Shown here one piece after another: positions 797 to 9,181 of a stretch of DNA of 64,000 nucleotides; position 1 is the first letter of the stretch; every line of letters begins with the position of its first letter. This stretch comes from Winogradskyella vincentii (lineage in GTDB: Bacteria > Bacteroidota > Bacteroidia > Flavobacteriales > Flavobacteriaceae): contig NZ_JAIUJS010000010.1 in the NCBI RefSeq assembly GCF_020166345.1, positions 1 to 64,000 on the forward strand, in the 5' to 3' direction. A program made the position numbers and the translations under genes. The notes below the pieces were generated by a model. It was not told where the DNA came from. It ran no database searches and worked only from the letters and a program-made list of their open reading frames with translations.

Positions 797-2050
797 TTAC
801 AGCCCGAAGGCGTCCTTTACCTTGTCTACATAGTCTAGTTTTTCCCATGTAAATAACTCTACATCCATTGTTACGGATTCTCCATTTGGTTGTTCGAAAG
901 TCTTGCTAACTGTAACGTTTTCCCTTCCCATATGACCATATGCTGCAGTTTCACTGTACATTGGCTGGCGTAATTTAAGTCGCTTTTCTATTGCTGCTGG
1001 TCGCATGTCAAAAAGCGTAGCAACTTTTTCTGCAATCTCACCATCAGTTAAATTTAAAGGGCAAGTACCGTAAGTTTCAATAAAAATTCCCATTGGTTCA
1101 ACTACACCAATAGCATAGGATACTTGTACTAAAACTTCTTCACATAAACCAGATGCTACCAAATTTTTAGCAATATGCCTAGTAGCATAAGCGGCACTTC
1201 GATCAACCTTACTTGGATCTTTACCGGAAAAAGCACCACCACCATGAGCGCCTTTGCCACCATAGGTGTCCACAATAATTTTTCTACCCGTTAATCCTGT
1301 ATCACCATGTGGACCGCCAATTACAAATTTACCAGTAGGATTAATGTGATATTTAATGTCCTCAGTAAATAAGGGTTTAATATGTTCTGGCAATTTTTCA
1401 ACAACTCTTGGGATTAATATATCCACCATATCCTTTCTAATTTTAGAAAGCATGGCCTCTTCATTGTCAAAATCATCGTGTTGCGTTGATATAACAATAG
1501 CTTCAATGCGTTGAGGTGTATTATCATCACTATATTCTATAGTAACTTGACTTTTAGAATCTGGTCTTAAATATGTAATCTCCTTGTTTTCTCGTCTCAG
1601 CTCTGCTAATTCCTTTAATATTAAGTGAGAAATATGAAGAGCCAAAGGCATGTAATTGTCCGTTTCATTCGTTGCATAACCAAACATCATTCCTTGGTCA
1701 CCAGCACCTTGTTCTTCTTTTGCCCCTCTGTCTACACCTCGATTAATATCTTCTGATTGTTCATGGATTGCAGATATGACACCACAAGAATTTCCGTCGA
1801 ACATGTATTCTCCTTTAGTGTAACCGATTTTATTAATGGTATCTCTAGCAATTTTCTGAACATCTAAATAGGTGTTAGATTTAACTTCACCTGCCAATAC
1901 AACTTGCCCTGTTGTAACTAAGGTTTCGCAAGCTACTTTAGATTCTGGATCGAAAGCTAAAAAATTGTCAATTAAAGCATCACTGATTTGATCTGCGACC
2001 TTATCTGGATGTCCTTCTGATACACTCTCTGATGTAAATAAATACGCCAT
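797..2050 (-). CDS. metK: S-adenosylmethionine synthase
   Basis: Makes S-adenosylmethionine from methionine and ATP in the cytoplasm, usually as a tetramer. The 417-residue protein carries the GHPDK motif (13-17), the GAGDQG signature (about 115-120) and the glycine-rich [10 protein letters not shown] loop (about 266-275) that closes on the triphosphate. It is longer than the E. coli enzyme (384) because of a mid-protein insertion that I recall as common in Bacteroidota. The gene stands alone, with its own promoter, a SAM-II-like riboswitch in the leader and a strong terminator, so it is probably repressed by its own product. Confidence 0.97.
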
Positions 2051-3348: not shown

Positions 3349-4088
3349 AAAAAATAGTTTACATATTAAGTCTATTAGTATTCGCTTGTAATAGCGAAGA
3401 TGCTAATGATTGTTTTCAAACTTCGGGTGACATTATACAGGTGGAAATTGATGTAGCCAGTTTCGATCGAATATTAGTAAATAGAGATATAGAATTAGTC
3501 ATTAAGGAAGCGCCCGATTTTAAGGTAACAGTAGAAACAGGTGAAAACTTAATTAACGATGTTGAGGTTGAGGTTATTGGAGATAGATTGGTTTTGACAG
3601 ATAATAATACCTGTAATTATGTTAGAGATTTTGGTATTACAAAAGTTTTTGTGGAAGCACCAAATTTAACTGAGGTTAGGAGTTCAACACAATACGATAT
3701 TCTATCTGATGGTGTTTTGAATTATGATAATTTGGAATTGTATTCTGATGATTTTTTTGCTCCAGACTCATTTACAAATGGTGATTTTAGATTACAGGTT
3801 AATAGTGAAGAACTTAGAATTCTTGTGAACAATATTTCATTTCAATATATATCAGGTGAAGTAAATAAGTTGACAATAATTTATCCAGCAGGTTCTGGAC
3901 GCTTTGAAGGCGAGGATCTAATCGCGCAAGATGTACAAATTAATCATAGAGGGAGTAATGATATTGTTGTCAATCCACAACAATCTTTAACTGGTCTAAT
4001 TCGAGGGACAGGAAATGTAATATCTGTTAATGAGCCTCCTTTGGTCGATGTTGAAATTATTTATACTGGAGATTTAATTTTTAATTAG
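3345..4088 (+). CDS. DUF2807 (head GIN domain) lipoprotein
   Basis: 247 residues with a short lipoprotein signal (LLVFAC, Cys15). The body is a repetitive run of short beta strands (for example FDRILVNRDIELVIKE, then VTVETGENL and LVLTDNNT), matching the DUF2807 'putative auto-transporter adhesin, head GIN' family of right-handed beta-helical envelope proteins. It starts inside the stop of the PagL-like gene (ATGA) and so belongs to the same operon. It converges with gldA, with an 8-base 3' overlap. Function is unknown; a structural or adhesive envelope role is a guess from the family name. Confidence 0.75.
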   Translation: MKKIVYILSLLVFACNSEDANDCFQTSGDIIQVEIDVASFDRILVNRDIELVIKEAPDFKVTVETGENLINDVEVEVIGDRLVLTDNNTCNYVRDFGITKVFVEAPNLTEVRSSTQYDILSDGVLNYDNLELYSDDFFAPDSFTNGDFRLQVNSEELRILVNNISFQYISGEVNKLTIIYPAGSGRFEGEDLIAQDVQINHRGSNDIVVNPQQSLTGLIRGTGNVISVNEPPLVDVEIIYTGDLIFN

Positions 4089-4974
4089 TCAGCTCCCTAA
4101 AGAGACTTTCTAAACTCGCATTTTTTTGATTTAACTGTAAAATCTTAAGATCATTATCATGAGCAAAATCGAAAACATGTGATCTCATGTCTTCCTCTGT
4201 AGAAAAAGTAATTTCATAAATAAAACCGTTTGGGTTTTTTACTGATTTTACCTTTGGTAATTTCAATAGAAAAGCTTCTTCAACCCTATAATCAAACTCA
4301 ACAATAACAATTTGTTCTTGTCCGTCCCTCAACTCTTTGAGATATTTATCTGCAACAACTTCTCCTTTATTAATAATTATCACCCTATCGCACATTGCTT
4401 CAACCTCTTGCATAATATGTGTAGAGAGAAATACGGTTTTCTCCTTGCCGATAGACTTAATTAAATTTCTGATTTCAACGAGCTGATTAGGGTCTAATCC
4501 TGTGGTCGGTTCATCGAGTATTAAAACATCTGGGTTATGCAATAAGGCATTGGCCAATCCAACGCGTTGGCGATAACCTTTAGAAAGCTGCCCAATTTTT
4601 TTATGAGCTTCTGGTGTTAACCCTGTGAGTTCAATCACTTCATTTATTCTCGATTTTGGCGTACCGTATACATTAGCATTAAAATCTAAGTATTCTTTAA
4701 CATACAAATCTGTATATAATGGATTGTGCTCTGGTAAATATCCAACACTTTGCTGCACGTTTTTCTTGTCAATACTAACATCATGACCATTTACCATCGC
4801 ACTGCCTTCATTTGCATTAATATAGGTAGTTAAGATCTTCATCATAGTCGATTTTCCAGCACCATTTGGTCCTAAAAATCCAACGATTTCAGCATCTTTA
4901 ACTTTAAAGGAGACATTGTTAAGTGCTTTTTGCTCTTTGTAATACTTGGATATATTAATTACTTCAATAGACAT
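4081..4974 (-). CDS. gldA: Gliding motility ABC transporter ATP-binding subunit GldA
   Basis: ATPase subunit of the GldA/GldF/GldG ABC transporter, needed for gliding in Flavobacterium johnsoniae although absent from some gliders. The 297-residue protein has Walker A GPNGAGKS (35-42), the signature LSKGYRQR (about 129-136), Walker B VLILDEP (about 148-155) and the H-loop STH. Long stretches agree with my memory of F. johnsoniae GldA, including SVGYLPEHNPLY and the C-terminal extension. gldF and gldG are not in the window; gldA is commonly separate from them. Confidence 0.9.
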   Translation of the reverse strand: MSIEVINISKYYKEQKALNNVSFKVKDAEIVGFLGPNGAGKSTMMKILTTYINANEGSAMVNGHDVSIDKKNVQQSVGYLPEHNPLYTDLYVKEYLDFNANVYGTPKSRINEVIELTGLTPEAHKKIGQLSKGYRQRVGLANALLHNPDVLILDEPTTGLDPNQLVEIRNLIKSIGKEKTVFLSTHIMQEVEAMCDRVIIINKGEVVADKYLKELRDGQEQIVIVEFDYRVEEAFLLKLPKVKSVKNPNGFIYEITFSTEEDMRSHVFDFAHDNDLKILQLNQKNASLESLFRELTN

Positions 4975-5100
4975 TTTTCAGTTTATTTTTTCAAAAATAG
5001 GTATTCTATAATATTGTAGCCTAAATATTGACAATTCTTTAAATCTTGGTATTAATATTCAAAAAAAATGACTCTTATTTTTATTTGTAAAAATATTAAT

Positions 5101-5108
5101 TACTTTAG
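5101..5108 (+). promoter_or_regulatory. Candidate promoter of the aromatic operon leader, -7 element
   Basis: TACTTTAG differs from the Bacteroidota consensus TAnnTTTG by one base. It would start transcription near 5114, giving a very short leader before the peptide ATG at 5125. A TTTG at 5084-5087 is closer than the usual 17-23 bases, so the -33 assignment is weak. Confidence 0.4.
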
Positions 5109-5124
5109 CATCAGAATTATAACA

Positions 5125-5190
5125 ATGAATACATTTAAAACATATTATAGCTGGTTTTATTTCTTTTTTAGCAAAAGGAACGAGGCTTAG
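5125..5190 (+). CDS. Aromatic-rich leader peptide of the pheA operon (attenuator)
   Basis: A 21-codon reading frame (ATG 5125, TAG 5188) lies between a candidate promoter and pheA. Codons 7-15 (5143-5169) read Tyr-Tyr-Ser-Trp-Phe-Tyr-Phe-Phe-Phe, so 8 of 9 consecutive codons need an aromatic tRNA. The operon behind it makes phenylalanine and tyrosine and feeds chorismate synthesis. The last codons overlap the antiterminator strand 5181-5188, as expected for ribosome-controlled attenuation. The frame has no other plausible function and is too short for normal gene finders. Confidence 0.88.
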   Translation: MNTFKTYYSWFYFFFSKRNEA

Positions 5191-5225
5191 TATGTTTTAT
5201 TAAAAATATAATTATGAAAGTCTCG
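5181..5225 (+). promoter_or_regulatory. Antiterminator helix of the aromatic attenuator
   Basis: CGAGGCTT (5181-5188) can pair with AAGTCTCG (5218-5225) over 8 bp, with one G-U pair. The same 5218-5225 strand is the left arm of the terminator, so the two helices exclude each other. A ribosome stalled on the aromatic codons ends upstream of 5181 and leaves this strand free; a ribosome that reaches the stop codon at 5188 covers it. Confidence 0.8.
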
Positions 5226-5244
5226 ATTTGGTCGAGACTTTTTT
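5217..5244 (+). terminator. Attenuator terminator before pheA
   Basis: Perfect 10-bp stem (5217-5226 with 5232-5241), loop TTTGG, then a T run to 5244. It ends three bases before the pheA ATG at 5248, so every transcript from upstream must pass it. Its right arm (CGAGACTT, 5233-5240) repeats the antiterminator strand at 5181-5188 with one base difference. Confidence 0.9.
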
Positions 5245-5247
5245 ATT

Positions 5248-6075
5248 ATGAGCAAACCAATAGCAATACAAGGAATTAGAGGGTCATTTCATCACGAAGT
5301 GGTTCAGCATTATTTTAATGGTAGCAATAATGTTATTGAATGTATGTCTTTTGATAGTGCTGTGGATAGTTTATTAAATGGTAAGGCGGATGATATTGTT
5401 ATGGCATTAGAAAATTCTATTGCAGGATCCATATTGCCCAACTATGCTTTAATAGATAAGCACGATCTTAAAATTGTAGGAGAATATTTTTTAGATATTC
5501 AGCATAGTTTAATGGCCTTAGATGGACAATCGATTAATGATATTAAAGAGGTTCACTCTCATCCAATGGCGCTTTTGCAATGCAAAGTGTTTTTAAAAAA
5601 GCACCCACATATAAAATTAGTTGAGGCAAAGGATACTGCGGATGTTGCCAAACAAATCTCAGAGGATAAGATATTTGGTATTGCGGCTATTGCTAGTAAG
5701 AATGCCGCCTTAATGTTTGGTCTAAATGTCTTGGCAGAAAGTATTCAAACCATAAAGCATAATGAGACAAGGTTTGTAATTGTTAAACGTGAACATCCAG
5801 AAGTAAACGAAAAGATGCTCAATAAGGCTTCTTTGAAATTTATTTTAGACCATAAGCGCGGTAGTTTAGCCACCATGCTAAATGTAATGAGCGATTGCAA
5901 ACTGAATTTAACCAAAATTCAATCTTTACCAAAAATAGATACACCATGGAAATATGCCTTTTTTGTAGATGTCACCTTTGAGGAATATAAAGATTATGAA
6001 AAAGCAAAATCAATAATCGCATTAATGGCTGATGATTTTAAAATTTTGGGCGAATATAAAAATGCAAGACTATGA
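5248..6075 (+). CDS. pheA: Prephenate dehydratase
   Basis: Converts prephenate to phenylpyruvate, the committed step to phenylalanine. The 275-residue protein starts IAIQGIRGSFHHEVV, the substrate-domain N-terminus typical of the family. It has the NETRF motif with the catalytic Thr of the TRF triplet (Thr174) and a C-terminal ACT domain from about 195 (KRGSLATMLNVM, then LTKIQSLP) that usually binds phenylalanine for feedback inhibition. There is no fused chorismate mutase; that domain is on the last gene of the operon. It overlaps the next gene by ATGA and follows the attenuator directly. Confidence 0.95.
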   Translation: MSKPIAIQGIRGSFHHEVVQHYFNGSNNVIECMSFDSAVDSLLNGKADDIVMALENSIAGSILPNYALIDKHDLKIVGEYFLDIQHSLMALDGQSINDIKEVHSHPMALLQCKVFLKKHPHIKLVEAKDTADVAKQISEDKIFGIAAIASKNAALMFGLNVLAESIQTIKHNETRFVIVKREHPEVNEKMLNKASLKFILDHKRGSLATMLNVMSDCKLNLTKIQSLPKIDTPWKYAFFVDVTFEEYKDYEKAKSIIALMADDFKILGEYKNARL

Positions 6076-7214
6076 TTGAAGTAGCAGATCGATTAAAGAA
6101 TGTAGAAGAATACTATTTCTCAAAAAAATTAAGAGAAGTTGCATTTTTAAAGTCCCAGGGCAAACCAATTATTAACTTAGGTATAGGTAGTCCTGATTTA
6201 GAACCACCTCATAAAGCTACCATGGTGCTTCAAGATAGTTTGTTAGATGAAGGAGCTCATAAATACCAGAGCTATCAAGGCTTACCAGAGTTAAGAACTG
6301 AAATTGCAAATTTTTATAGAAGTAGGTATAAAGTTAATCTTAGTGCACAAACAGAGGTACTCCCTCTTTTAGGAAGTAAGGAAGGTATAATGCACATCTC
6401 AATGGCATTCTTAAATCCTGGCGATGAAGTGTTAATTCCAAATCCTGGGTATCCAACATATGCAGCAGTTACCAAATTATTACAAGCAAAGCCAGTTTAT
6501 TACGATTTAATTGAAGAAAATCACTGGCTACCAGATTTTATTGCATTAGAGCGTTTAGACTTAAGTAACGTTAAAATTATGTGGATCAGCTATCCACATA
6601 TGCCAACTGGTGCTAAGGCAACAAATAAGTTTTATGATGAGGTAATTGCCTTTGGGAAGCGTCATGATATATTAATTGTTAATGATAATCCATACAGTTT
6701 TGTACTTAATGATAAACCAATAAGTATAATGCGTTATCGTAATGCCAAGGATGTTTGTTTAGAATTAAATTCATTGAGCAAAACCTTTAATATGGCAGGA
6801 TGGAGAGTCGGCATGTTAGTTGGGAATTACGATTTTGTTCAAGCTGTACTTAAGGTTAAAAGCAATATGGATTCTGGGATGTTCTATGGTGTACAAAAAG
6901 GAGCGATTGAAGCACTCAAATGCTCTGATCTTTGGTATGTAAGTTTAAATAGTGTGTACCAACAAAGAAGAGAGTTAATCTGGAAATTGGCAACCGAATT
7001 AAACTGCACTTACGATGAGGATTCAGCGGGAATGTTTGTTTGGGCAAAATTGCCACCACATGTTAAATCTGAAGAATTCACAGATTTAATCTTAAAGGAA
7101 CATTCTGTGTTTATTACACCAGGTACGGTCTTCGGTAGTAATGGAGAAGGATATATTAGATTTTCATTATGTGCCTCAGACGAAATAATTAAAGAAGCAA
7201 TTGCAAGAGTGTAA
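6072..7214 (+). CDS. PLP-dependent aminotransferase, probably aromatic (phenylalanine/tyrosine)
   Basis: A class I/II aminotransferase of 380 residues. The Schiff-base lysine lies in SLSKTFNMAGWRVG (Lys237). Upstream are the PNPGYPTY and NDNPY segments that hold the cofactor ring and phosphate. By sequence it belongs with the aspartate / LL-diaminopimelate aminotransferase group. Its place between pheA and tyrA, with a 4-base overlap with pheA, suggests it transaminates phenylpyruvate and 4-hydroxyphenylpyruvate. The substrate is inferred from context, not from residues. Confidence 0.88.
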   Translation: MIEVADRLKNVEEYYFSKKLREVAFLKSQGKPIINLGIGSPDLEPPHKATMVLQDSLLDEGAHKYQSYQGLPELRTEIANFYRSRYKVNLSAQTEVLPLLGSKEGIMHISMAFLNPGDEVLIPNPGYPTYAAVTKLLQAKPVYYDLIEENHWLPDFIALERLDLSNVKIMWISYPHMPTGAKATNKFYDEVIAFGKRHDILIVNDNPYSFVLNDKPISIMRYRNAKDVCLELNSLSKTFNMAGWRVGMLVGNYDFVQAVLKVKSNMDSGMFYGVQKGAIEALKCSDLWYVSLNSVYQQRRELIWKLATELNCTYDEDSAGMFVWAKLPPHVKSEEFTDLILKEHSVFITPGTVFGSNGEGYIRFSLCASDEIIKEAIARV

Positions 7215-7219
7215 AGATT

Positions 7220-8071
7220 ATGAATAATGTTTATGTCATAGGAGTTGGGTTAATTGGAGGAAGTTTTGCTTTAGATATTAAGGCGCTGTACCCAAATTGT
7301 ACTGTTTATGGTATAGACAATAATGAAGATCATATTCAACAGGCATTAGAATTAGGCGTAATAGATAAAAAAGCTACCATTACAGAATTGAACAATGCGG
7401 AAATGGTGGTGTTAGCAATTCCAGTTGATGCTACTTTGAAAGTATTACCAGAGGTATTAGATAATATTTCAGATGAAACTATTGTTTTTGATGCCGGTTC
7501 TACAAAAGAGGATATATGTTTAGAGGTAAAGAATCACCCTAAACGCAGAAATTATTTAGCGGCACATCCAATAGCTGGTACCGAGTTTTCTGGACCTAAG
7601 GCTGCTATTAAAGGACTATATAAAAATAAAACAAATATCATTTGCGAAGTAGAGGACACAGCGTTTAAGTTACAGGAAAAAGCCCTGAATTTGTTTTCAG
7701 ATTTAGGCATGAGAATTCGCTATATGAATCCTAAAGCACATGATAAGCATATTGCATATGTATCACATTTATCTCATATAAGTTCTTTTATGCTAGGTAA
7801 AACAGTAATAGAAAAGGAGAAGAACGAAAGAGATATTTTTGATATGGCAGGCAGTGGATTTGAAAGTACTGTGCGATTGGCAAAAAGTTCACCAGCTATG
7901 TGGACTCCAATTTTTGAGCAGAACAAAACCAATGTAATTGAAACCTTAGATGAATATATTTCAAATTTGAAGCATTTTAAAAAGCTAATGGAAGATGAAG
8001 ACTTTGAGGCAGTATATAAAGAAATGGAAGAAACAAACCACATAAAACACATATTAAACGGAATAAAATAA
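7220..8071 (+). CDS. tyrA: Prephenate dehydrogenase
   Basis: Oxidatively decarboxylates prephenate to 4-hydroxyphenylpyruvate for tyrosine. The 283-residue protein has an N-terminal Rossmann motif GVGLIGGS (8-15), a conserved HPIAGTEFSG segment (around 115-124) carrying residues of the prephenate site, and an all-helical C-terminal dimer domain with the HDKHIAYVSHLSH segment. No ACT domain is attached. It sits 5 bases after the aminotransferase in the same operon. Confidence 0.93.
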   Translation: MNNVYVIGVGLIGGSFALDIKALYPNCTVYGIDNNEDHIQQALELGVIDKKATITELNNAEMVVLAIPVDATLKVLPEVLDNISDETIVFDAGSTKEDICLEVKNHPKRRNYLAAHPIAGTEFSGPKAAIKGLYKNKTNIICEVEDTAFKLQEKALNLFSDLGMRIRYMNPKAHDKHIAYVSHLSHISSFMLGKTVIEKEKNERDIFDMAGSGFESTVRLAKSSPAMWTPIFEQNKTNVIETLDEYISNLKHFKKLMEDEDFEAVYKEMEETNHIKHILNGIK

Positions 8072-8098: not shown

Positions 8099-9181
8099 AT
8101 GGAAAACAAGAAAGAATTAAGGAATTGGTTAGACGCTTTTAACTTAGATCATCCACTAGTTATAGCAGGACCATGTAGTGCGGAAACAGAAGAACAAGTA
8201 TTAAACATTGCTCATCAATTAAAGGATAGTGATGCTACCGTATATAGAGCAGGAATTTGGAAACCAAGAACGCGTCCAGGAAATTTTGAAGGTGTTGGTG
8301 CCTTAGGATTAAAGTGGCTTCAAAAAGCTAAGCAGGAAACTGGAATGATGATTACAACTGAGGTTGCTAATCCAAACCATGTGGAGCTCGCATTAAATCA
8401 TGATGTAGATATTCTGTGGATTGGAGCTAGAACCACTGTAAGTCCTTTCATAGTTCAAGAGATTGCAGAAGCATTAAGAGGAACAGATAAGCCTGTTTTA
8501 ATTAAAAACCCAGTAAACCCAGATTTATCTTTGTGGTTGGGAGCAGTAGAGCGTTTTTATAAGTCAGATGTAAAAAAACTTGGTGTTATTCATAGAGGGT
8601 TTTCTACTTACGAAAAAACACGTTATAGAAACAATCCAGAGTGGCAAATCGCGGTAGATTTACAAAACCGTTTTCCTGATTTACCATTAATTCTAGATCC
8701 ATCACATATTGCAGGTAGACGGGATATAATATTTGATTTGAGTCAGACGGCATTAGATTTAAATTATGATGGATTAATGATAGAGACCCATCACGATCCT
8801 GATAATGCCTGGAGTGATGCTGCACAGCAAATTACACCTGAAGCGCTTATTAAATACACCGAAGATTTAAGGATAAGAAAAGAAACTGATGATGATGCTG
8901 TTTTTAACAACAAAATTAACACGCTTAGAACAAAGATTGACGTTATTGACCATCAATTAATAGAAATGTTAGGGAAAAGAATGAACGTAGCTGATGATAT
9001 TGGTCAATTGAAAAAGGATCACAATGTTGCAGTTTTACAATCTAAGCGCTGGAATGAAATTTTAGGTAAAATGATTTTAGAAGGTGAAGAAAAGAATCTA
9101 AGTGAAGAATTTGTTTTACGAATGTTTAAAGCAATTCACCAAGAATCGATTAACCATCAAGAAGATATTATTAATCATTAA
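8099..9181 (+). CDS. Bifunctional DAHP synthase / chorismate mutase
   Basis: Residues 1 to about 255 form a type I-beta 3-deoxy-7-phosphoheptulonate synthase (AGPCSAET at 23-30, GIWKPRTRPGNFEG, later DPSHIAG and METHHDP). Residues from about 270 to 360 are an AroQ-class chorismate mutase (LRTKIDVIDHQLIEMLGKR, then KSKRW-like and IHQES segments). The protein thus catalyses the first step of the shikimate pathway and the branch step to prephenate. In this family the mutase domain often gives allosteric control by prephenate. Last gene of the operon, followed by a strong terminator. The chorismate mutase completes what the single-domain PheA lacks. Confidence 0.93.
   Translation: MENKKELRNWLDAFNLDHPLVIAGPCSAETEEQVLNIAHQLKDSDATVYRAGIWKPRTRPGNFEGVGALGLKWLQKAKQETGMMITTEVANPNHVELALNHDVDILWIGARTTVSPFIVQEIAEALRGTDKPVLIKNPVNPDLSLWLGAVERFYKSDVKKLGVIHRGFSTYEKTRYRNNPEWQIAVDLQNRFPDLPLILDPSHIAGRRDIIFDLSQTALDLNYDGLMIETHHDPDNAWSDAAQQITPEALIKYTEDLRIRKETDDDAVFNNKINTLRTKIDVIDHQLIEMLGKRMNVADDIGQLKKDHNVAVLQSKRWNEILGKMILEGEEKNLSEEFVLRMFKAIHQESINHQEDIINH

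Follow-up and report, generated by a model that had tools for sequence, protein, structure and literature searches.

A probable ribosome-mediated transcription attenuator with an aromatic leader peptide upstream of the pheA operon in Winogradskyella vincentii and its relatives

The operon encoding prephenate dehydratase (PheA), an aminotransferase, prephenate dehydrogenase (TyrA) and a DAHP synthase/chorismate mutase in Winogradskyella vincentii is preceded by a leader frame rich in aromatic codons, an antiterminator and an intrinsic terminator. As judged from the sequence, this arrangement very probably acts as a ribosome-mediated transcription attenuator of the operon. All coordinates refer to the window, i.e. 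the whole stretch of 64,000 nucleotides that was analysed. The features of the leader region and the operon are listed in Table 1.

The proposed mechanism is as follows. When aromatic aminoacyl-tRNAs are plentiful, the translating ribosome would reach the end of the leader and cover the left arm of the antiterminator; the terminator would then form and transcription would end before pheA. A shortage of Phe, of Tyr or, in this lineage, of Trp would make the ribosome stall within codons 7-15. If the stall occurs at the last Phe codon, the edge of the ribosome would lie just before the arm, leaving the latter to pair with 5218-5225, which would exclude the terminator and allow the operon to be transcribed.

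Table 1. Features of the pheA leader region and operon, with positions in the window
Feature	Position	Strand	Description and basis
Putative promoter	5078..5109	+	Degenerate -33 element TTTTTA (5078-5083); -7 box TACTTTAGC (5101-5109)
Leader peptide frame	5125..5190	+	21 codons, MNTFKTYYSWFYFFFSKRNEA then stop; sequence, same peptide type in relatives
Control codons 7-15	5143..5169	+	Tyr Tyr Ser Trp Phe Tyr Phe Phe Phe; sequence, aromatic density versus controls
Possible hairpin P	5161..5180	+	UUCUUUUU (5161-5168) with AAAAGGAA (5173-5180); fold, -3.4 kcal/mol
Antiterminator left arm	5181..5188	+	CGAGGCTT; overlaps final codons and stop of the leader; sequence, fold, permutation test
Antiterminator inner helix	5191..5210	+	5191-5198 with 5203-5210; fold of 5181-5225, -10.3 kcal/mol
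Intrinsic terminator	5216..5244	+	12 pairs, 5216-5227 with 5231-5242; T run 5239-5244
Common strand	5218..5225	+	AAGTCTCG; antiterminator right arm and part of terminator left arm
pheA, prephenate dehydratase	5248..6075	+	PF00800
Class I/II aminotransferase	6072..7214	+	PF00155
tyrA, prephenate dehydrogenase	7220..8071	+	PF02153, PF20463; NF006307 above cut-off
DAHP synthase fused to chorismate mutase (gene 4)	8099..9181	+	PF00793, PF01817

Leader region and operon

Codons 7-15 of the leader frame 5125-5190 read YYSWFYFFF, as noted in a first-pass annotation of this DNA. A short frame with codons for the product amino acids of the pathway is what is expected of an attenuator. For comparison, 180 upstream regions were pooled after removal of duplicates. 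A leader was present in 175 of these and was not found within 500 nt in the other five (L042, L150, L193, L200 and L240); L042 and L193 have a short upstream region at a contig edge, while the leader of L150 falls beyond the 500-nt limit. In 146 of the 175 leader-bearing regions, the most aromatic stretch of nine residues encoded in the 300 nt preceding pheA contained 7-9 aromatics. The same density was reached in only 1/175 regions on the opposite strand and in 2/875 Markov shuffles.

The putative promoter would place the transcription start at approximately 5113-5118. Promoter counts rest on the exact box TAC[AT]TTAGC, since used in place of a loose -7 box, the scan for which was uninformative (173/175 leaders positive, but also 532/875 shuffles). 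Of 80 leaders (that of the window and those of 79 loci), 78 have the exact box ahead of their ATG; L017 and L030 lack it. In L017, it is missing because the contig ends some 38 nt ahead of the start codon of the leader, in what looks like sequencing-adapter (Nextera transposase) sequence. The box resembles the flavobacterial -7 consensus TAnnTTTG given in the main text of PMC9723704.

The two helices proposed in the first-pass annotation could both be recovered. The antiterminator (5181-5188 with 5218-5225) comprises eight pairs, including one G-U, and the terminator (5217-5226 with 5232-5241, plus the T run) lies within the 12-pair helix of Table 1. These structures have one strand in common and are mutually exclusive, as expected of an attenuator. 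None of 200 shuffles was as good as the terminator (-14.6 kcal/mol, z -5.93) or the antiterminator (-10.3 kcal/mol, z -3.98). Two elements had been overlooked, namely the inner antiterminator helix (5191-5198 with 5203-5210) and the possible hairpin formed by 5161-5168 and 5173-5180. The pairs of the inner helix varied when the corresponding region was folded in relatives. Terminator and inner helix together reach -17.3 kcal/mol. The terminator state is thus the more stable one and antitermination would therefore have to be kinetic; this would be achieved if the left arm and its partner are transcribed ahead of the right arm of the terminator.

The terminator is followed closely by pheA: six T residues occupy 5239-5244 and the gene starts at 5248. 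As the hairpin itself ends at 5242, six bases before this start, control might also be mainly translational, with the hairpin blocking ribosome entry at the pheA start codon until translation of the leader opens it. We consider this improbable: where a terminator was found (77 of 80 leaders), the hairpin lies anywhere between 5 and 156 nt from pheA, while the hairpin and the T run are kept.

The operon had been described as making only Phe and Tyr. This is incorrect, as gene 4 encodes a DAHP synthase plus chorismate mutase. It is the sole DAHP synthase found in the genome; the second PF00793 protein is a KDO-8-P synthase, and a search of the genome for type II DAHP synthase (PF01474) was negative. 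With this enzyme, the operon includes the step that commits the pathway to all three aromatic amino acids. The Trp codon in a leader placed before the only DAHP synthase found is thus fitting and presents no paradox. The 175 leaders contain Phe, Tyr and Trp codons (132 leaders), Phe and Tyr codons only (42) or Phe and Trp codons only (1). The idea that the Trp codon tracks the DAHP synthase was rejected: among loci fetched from the class outside the order, Trp was present in 5/19 leaders and DAHP synthase in 18/20 loci. The two of these 20 loci in which no DAHP synthase was found are L234, where the contig ends early, and the leaderless L240.

Spacing and pairing across leaders

The spacing analysis covered leaders with a terminator recognised by the script. 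These numbered 168, of which 150 were distinct; the seven leaders in which the script missed the terminator (L182, L185, L234, L243, L244, L247 and L250) were left out. Counted between first bases, the antiterminator arm follows the last aromatic codon by a median of 14 nt (sd 1.5, range 7-18) in the 150 leaders. The position of the arm varied more when measured from the leader start (sd 4.2) or from the stop codon (sd 9.8).

A ribosome is taken to cover 15 nt on each side of the first P-site base. If stalled at the last aromatic codon, it would leave the arm wholly free in 119/150 leaders and overlap at most 0.3 of it in 142/150. Some overlap occurs in 31/150 leaders, exceeding half of the arm in two of these. 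A terminating ribosome at the stop codon would cover at least half of the arm in 142/150 leaders. Coverage at the stop is below half in the remaining eight (L180, L194, L195, L237, L249, L251, L252 and L270); their stop codon lies 23-31 nt past the arm start, so that the ribosome would sit in the antiterminator loop rather than on the arm. The codons are thus placed such that a stalled ribosome would free the arm and a terminating one would mask it, as an attenuator requires.

Within the close set of leaders, the stop codon has moved (lengths of 16, 21-22 and 23-26 codons and, in one case, 19), while the spacing between codons and arm is nearly constant; examples are L004, L005 and L050. These shifted stops at constant spacing amount to a natural experiment on the effect of stop position.

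The spacing also bears on nascent-peptide arrest, for which TnaC is the model. In this case, the aromatic peptide itself would detect the free amino acids from within the tunnel of the ribosome. The core YYNWFYFFF is indeed strongly kept in the close set, being identical in 38/70 matched cores. Across lineages, however, F, Y and W interchange freely and the N-terminal part of the peptide is variable. The most constant quantity is the distance from codons to arm, and the third positions of the core codons are conserved, pointing to constraints on the RNA as well. Arrest by the peptide is considered even less probable than translational control.

The antiterminator arms differ among lineages and change together. 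The pairs observed include CGAGAC/GTCTCG, CGGGACT/AGTCCCG, GGGATT/AATCCC, GAGGCTTT/AAAGCCTC and AGCGGGA/TCCCGCT. The helix score of arms from the same leader was 16.74, compared with a mean of 13.78 and a maximum of 14.37 after permutation (0/1000, not corrected for relatedness). For the 52 leaders with arms outside the GTCTC class, the score was 17.17 against a permuted maximum of 14.51 (0/1000, again uncorrected, the permutation control being weakened by related sequences in this wider comparison).

Covariation was also examined in alignment A1, the close alignment of 61 of the 80 leaders. The terminator gave a weakly positive result, with two pairs changed on both sides and 0/500 shuffles as high. 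Two-sided changes in the antiterminator were not in excess over shuffles in A1. Because the arms hardly vary there, covariation in A1 is not informative on either the antiterminator or hairpin P.

Possible hairpin P and the untranslated leader

The last Phe codons may form one side of a short hairpin, P, located directly 5' of the antiterminator arm. The helix score of P halves from the same leader exceeded the permuted maximum both in the 150 leaders (14.22 versus 13.43, 0/300) and in 61 leaders drawn from the wider set (13.31 versus 12.16, 0/500). The third-last aromatic codon is TTC in 140/168 leaders and TTT in nine, a preference expected if its C must pair in P. In alignment A1, seven of the pairs of P were 91.8% paired with zero two-sided changes, and the C-G pair was broken in 22/61 leaders. 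Phe codons followed by Lys/Arg codons favour pairing by composition, and hence the evidence for P in the leader RNA is suggestive only.

The arrangement had been said to fit the classic ribosome-stalling model exactly. Ribosome-mediated attenuation stands as the best reading, but no protector of the E. coli 1:2 type, which gives termination without translation, was seen in the window. P adjoins the antiterminator arm without overlapping it. Nothing seen would thus sequester the arm in untranslated RNA, and read-through is predicted by default. In the trp operon of E. coli the opposite holds, and an untranslated leader terminates.

These features may define a class-wide attenuator family with a layout of its own, in which P lies beside and not across the arm and the untranslated leader reads through by default. 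We offer this only tentatively and consider it somewhat doubtful. If true, termination would need a ribosome that keeps pace with RNA polymerase, and the leader would report naturally on how transcription and translation are coupled in Bacteroidota. Members of this phylum mostly initiate translation without Shine-Dalgarno sequences. Whether RNA polymerase is closely trailed by ribosomes in leaders of Bacteroidota could be tested directly with this element.

Distribution and relation to known leaders

The named PheA closest to that of the window, among the 80 loci kept, was from Winogradskyella sp. KYW1333 (98% identity). An aromatic peptide of the same type was encoded upstream of pheA in 79/80 named loci, the exception being L042 with only 150 nt of upstream sequence. 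A covariance model, R1, was built from 61 of the close leaders and matched 215/299 family genomes at E <= 0.01; chance terminators may have contributed to this number. Twenty weak matches from the family were retrieved, and each of them lay before a pheA operon that has an aromatic leader. The first-pass annotation had named conservation of this region across the Flavobacteriaceae as a check; it is well documented by the close loci and these weak matches alike.

In the order, R1 matched 25/196 genomes at E <= 0.01, 12 of which belong to the family itself. Ten of the 30 order-search loci inspected were without pheA (L158, L165, L167, L170, L172, L173, L174, L176, L177 and L178) and had at most five aromatics in nine on either strand. 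The matches listed for the W. vincentii genome included 13 that were weaker than the leader itself (E 0.09-9.2). Nine of these (L113-L121) had no pheA nearby and also displayed at most five aromatics in nine on either strand. Some weak R1 matches in other genomes are likewise ordinary terminators. In view of the matches without pheA, an E value near 0.01 is no proof of a leader.

The class in question is taken here to be Bacteroidia as defined in GTDB. A pheA match was obtained in only 31 of the 119 genomes searched in the class set. In its other orders, 18/27 pheA loci had a leader with at least six aromatics in nine and 20 had one with at least five; seven had fewer. Outside the class, an aromatic leader within 500 nt before the open frame was identified in 2/27 loci examined (L302 and L303), which were drawn from 77 genomes with a match. 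These wider scans would miss the leader of an operon that starts with a gene other than pheA. The element is thus mainly a feature of the class. In the genomes of L302 and L303, the operon may possibly have been acquired by transfer together with its attenuator. The PheA proteins of L302 (G737) and L303 (G695) are 43% identical to that of the window; other matches listed from the same phylum were 31-42% identical.

AT-rich DNA does yield Phe- and Tyr-rich frames, and some weak model matches are ordinary terminators, but the possibility that a plain terminator of an upstream transcript follows a chance frame is negligible, given an aromatic density far above that of the opposite-strand and Markov controls, the conservation of the leader across the class, and the orientation of the upstream gene (4081-4974, ABC-transporter-like from its sequence), which lies on the opposite strand and is directed away.

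The position and number of leaders vary in some genomes. G380 (C25:18790-19034; L175, L156) carries two tandem aromatic leader-terminator units before one pheA, with the peptides MNNLVSTFRFFGFFFFRKEGAMS and MNQNTQQNFSFFGFFFFKWKSEAVD. Two leaders may likewise be present in G626 (L217, L244). The leader of L150 (G072) is located about 519 nt before pheA, as compared to 179 nt in L147 from the same genus.

No Rfam 15 family matched the pheA leader at gathering score, and the same was true for all 20 further leader loci scanned. The analysis delineates an RNA family unmatched in Rfam 15. The highest-scoring entry for the leader was Phe_leader (RF01859) from Gammaproteobacteria; the 26.5 bits obtained fall short of its gathering score, 55, and hence of membership. 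Phe_leader controls the same gene, pheA, and shares with the element described here a Phe-rich leader frame, control codons within a hairpin, and a terminator directly before the gene. Two differences are apparent: the leader studied here mixes Tyr, Trp and Phe, and its arm is located at the end of the frame, beside and not inside the strand able to pair with the control codons. This comparison uses the general layout of the E. coli attenuator together with the Rfam consensus. Sensing of several amino acids of a branched pathway by one leader is known for E. coli thrL and ilvL; the amino acids and the phylum are different.

Bacteroid-trp (RF01692) resembles the pheA leader in that it occurs in the same phylum and the same genome and comprises a short leader and a terminator before a biosynthetic gene. 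Its representative in W. vincentii (L232:748-867, contig C11; 64.0 bits, gathering score 49) precedes a trpE-like gene and has three consecutive Trp codons. The encoded peptide, MKTIITHTWWWNFSNSTSVN, is Trp-rich and, unlike the pheA leader, lacks Tyr. RF01692 was not matched by the pheA leaders in Rfam scans of the window leader and the 20 further loci.

Several published reports are relevant here. Bacteroid-trp was listed for Bacteroidetes (PMC2864571). In 2010, the authors of PMC2965389 stated that they knew of no leader-peptide system beyond Proteobacteria and Actinobacteria. A comparison with leader peptides was drawn for small frames that lie in long 5' UTRs of B. thetaiotaomicron (PMC7366714). 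The accessible portion of PMC4833913 deals with leader genes near structural genes and makes no mention of pheA. For Flavobacterium psychrophilum, the main text of PMC9723704 reports 'strong clues' that leader-peptide attenuation operates in front of amino-acid operons, as well as a structured 5' element upstream of pheA that is conserved in other Flavobacteriaceae and has no Rfam hits. The latter element has the same position as the pheA leader; the peptide, the arms and the mechanism for pheA are not given in that main text. The pheA element is thus partly known already. The present analysis supplies the anatomy of what that text presents as a structured 5' region. New here are the peptide and the competing arms, the constant spacing from codons to arm, the class-wide range, and the connection with the sole DAHP synthase found. 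A search of the open-licence PMC literature, with subscription journals and supplements outside its scope, found no description of a pheA leader peptide in Bacteroidota in the text accessible to it.

The opinion that attenuators are seldom annotated in Bacteroidota needs correction in light of RF01692 before trpE and the clues given in the main text of PMC9723704. Leader-peptide attenuation of the aromatic pathway would appear to be old, widespread in the class and not solely proteobacterial.

No covariance model of a T-box or riboswitch family matched at the pheA leader. Elsewhere in the window, a SAM-II riboswitch (RF01726; 65.8 bits, gathering score 44) was identified on the reverse strand at 2096-2154. 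It lies directly upstream of a metK-like gene, named from its sequence (797-2050, reverse strand), which is an ordinary arrangement.
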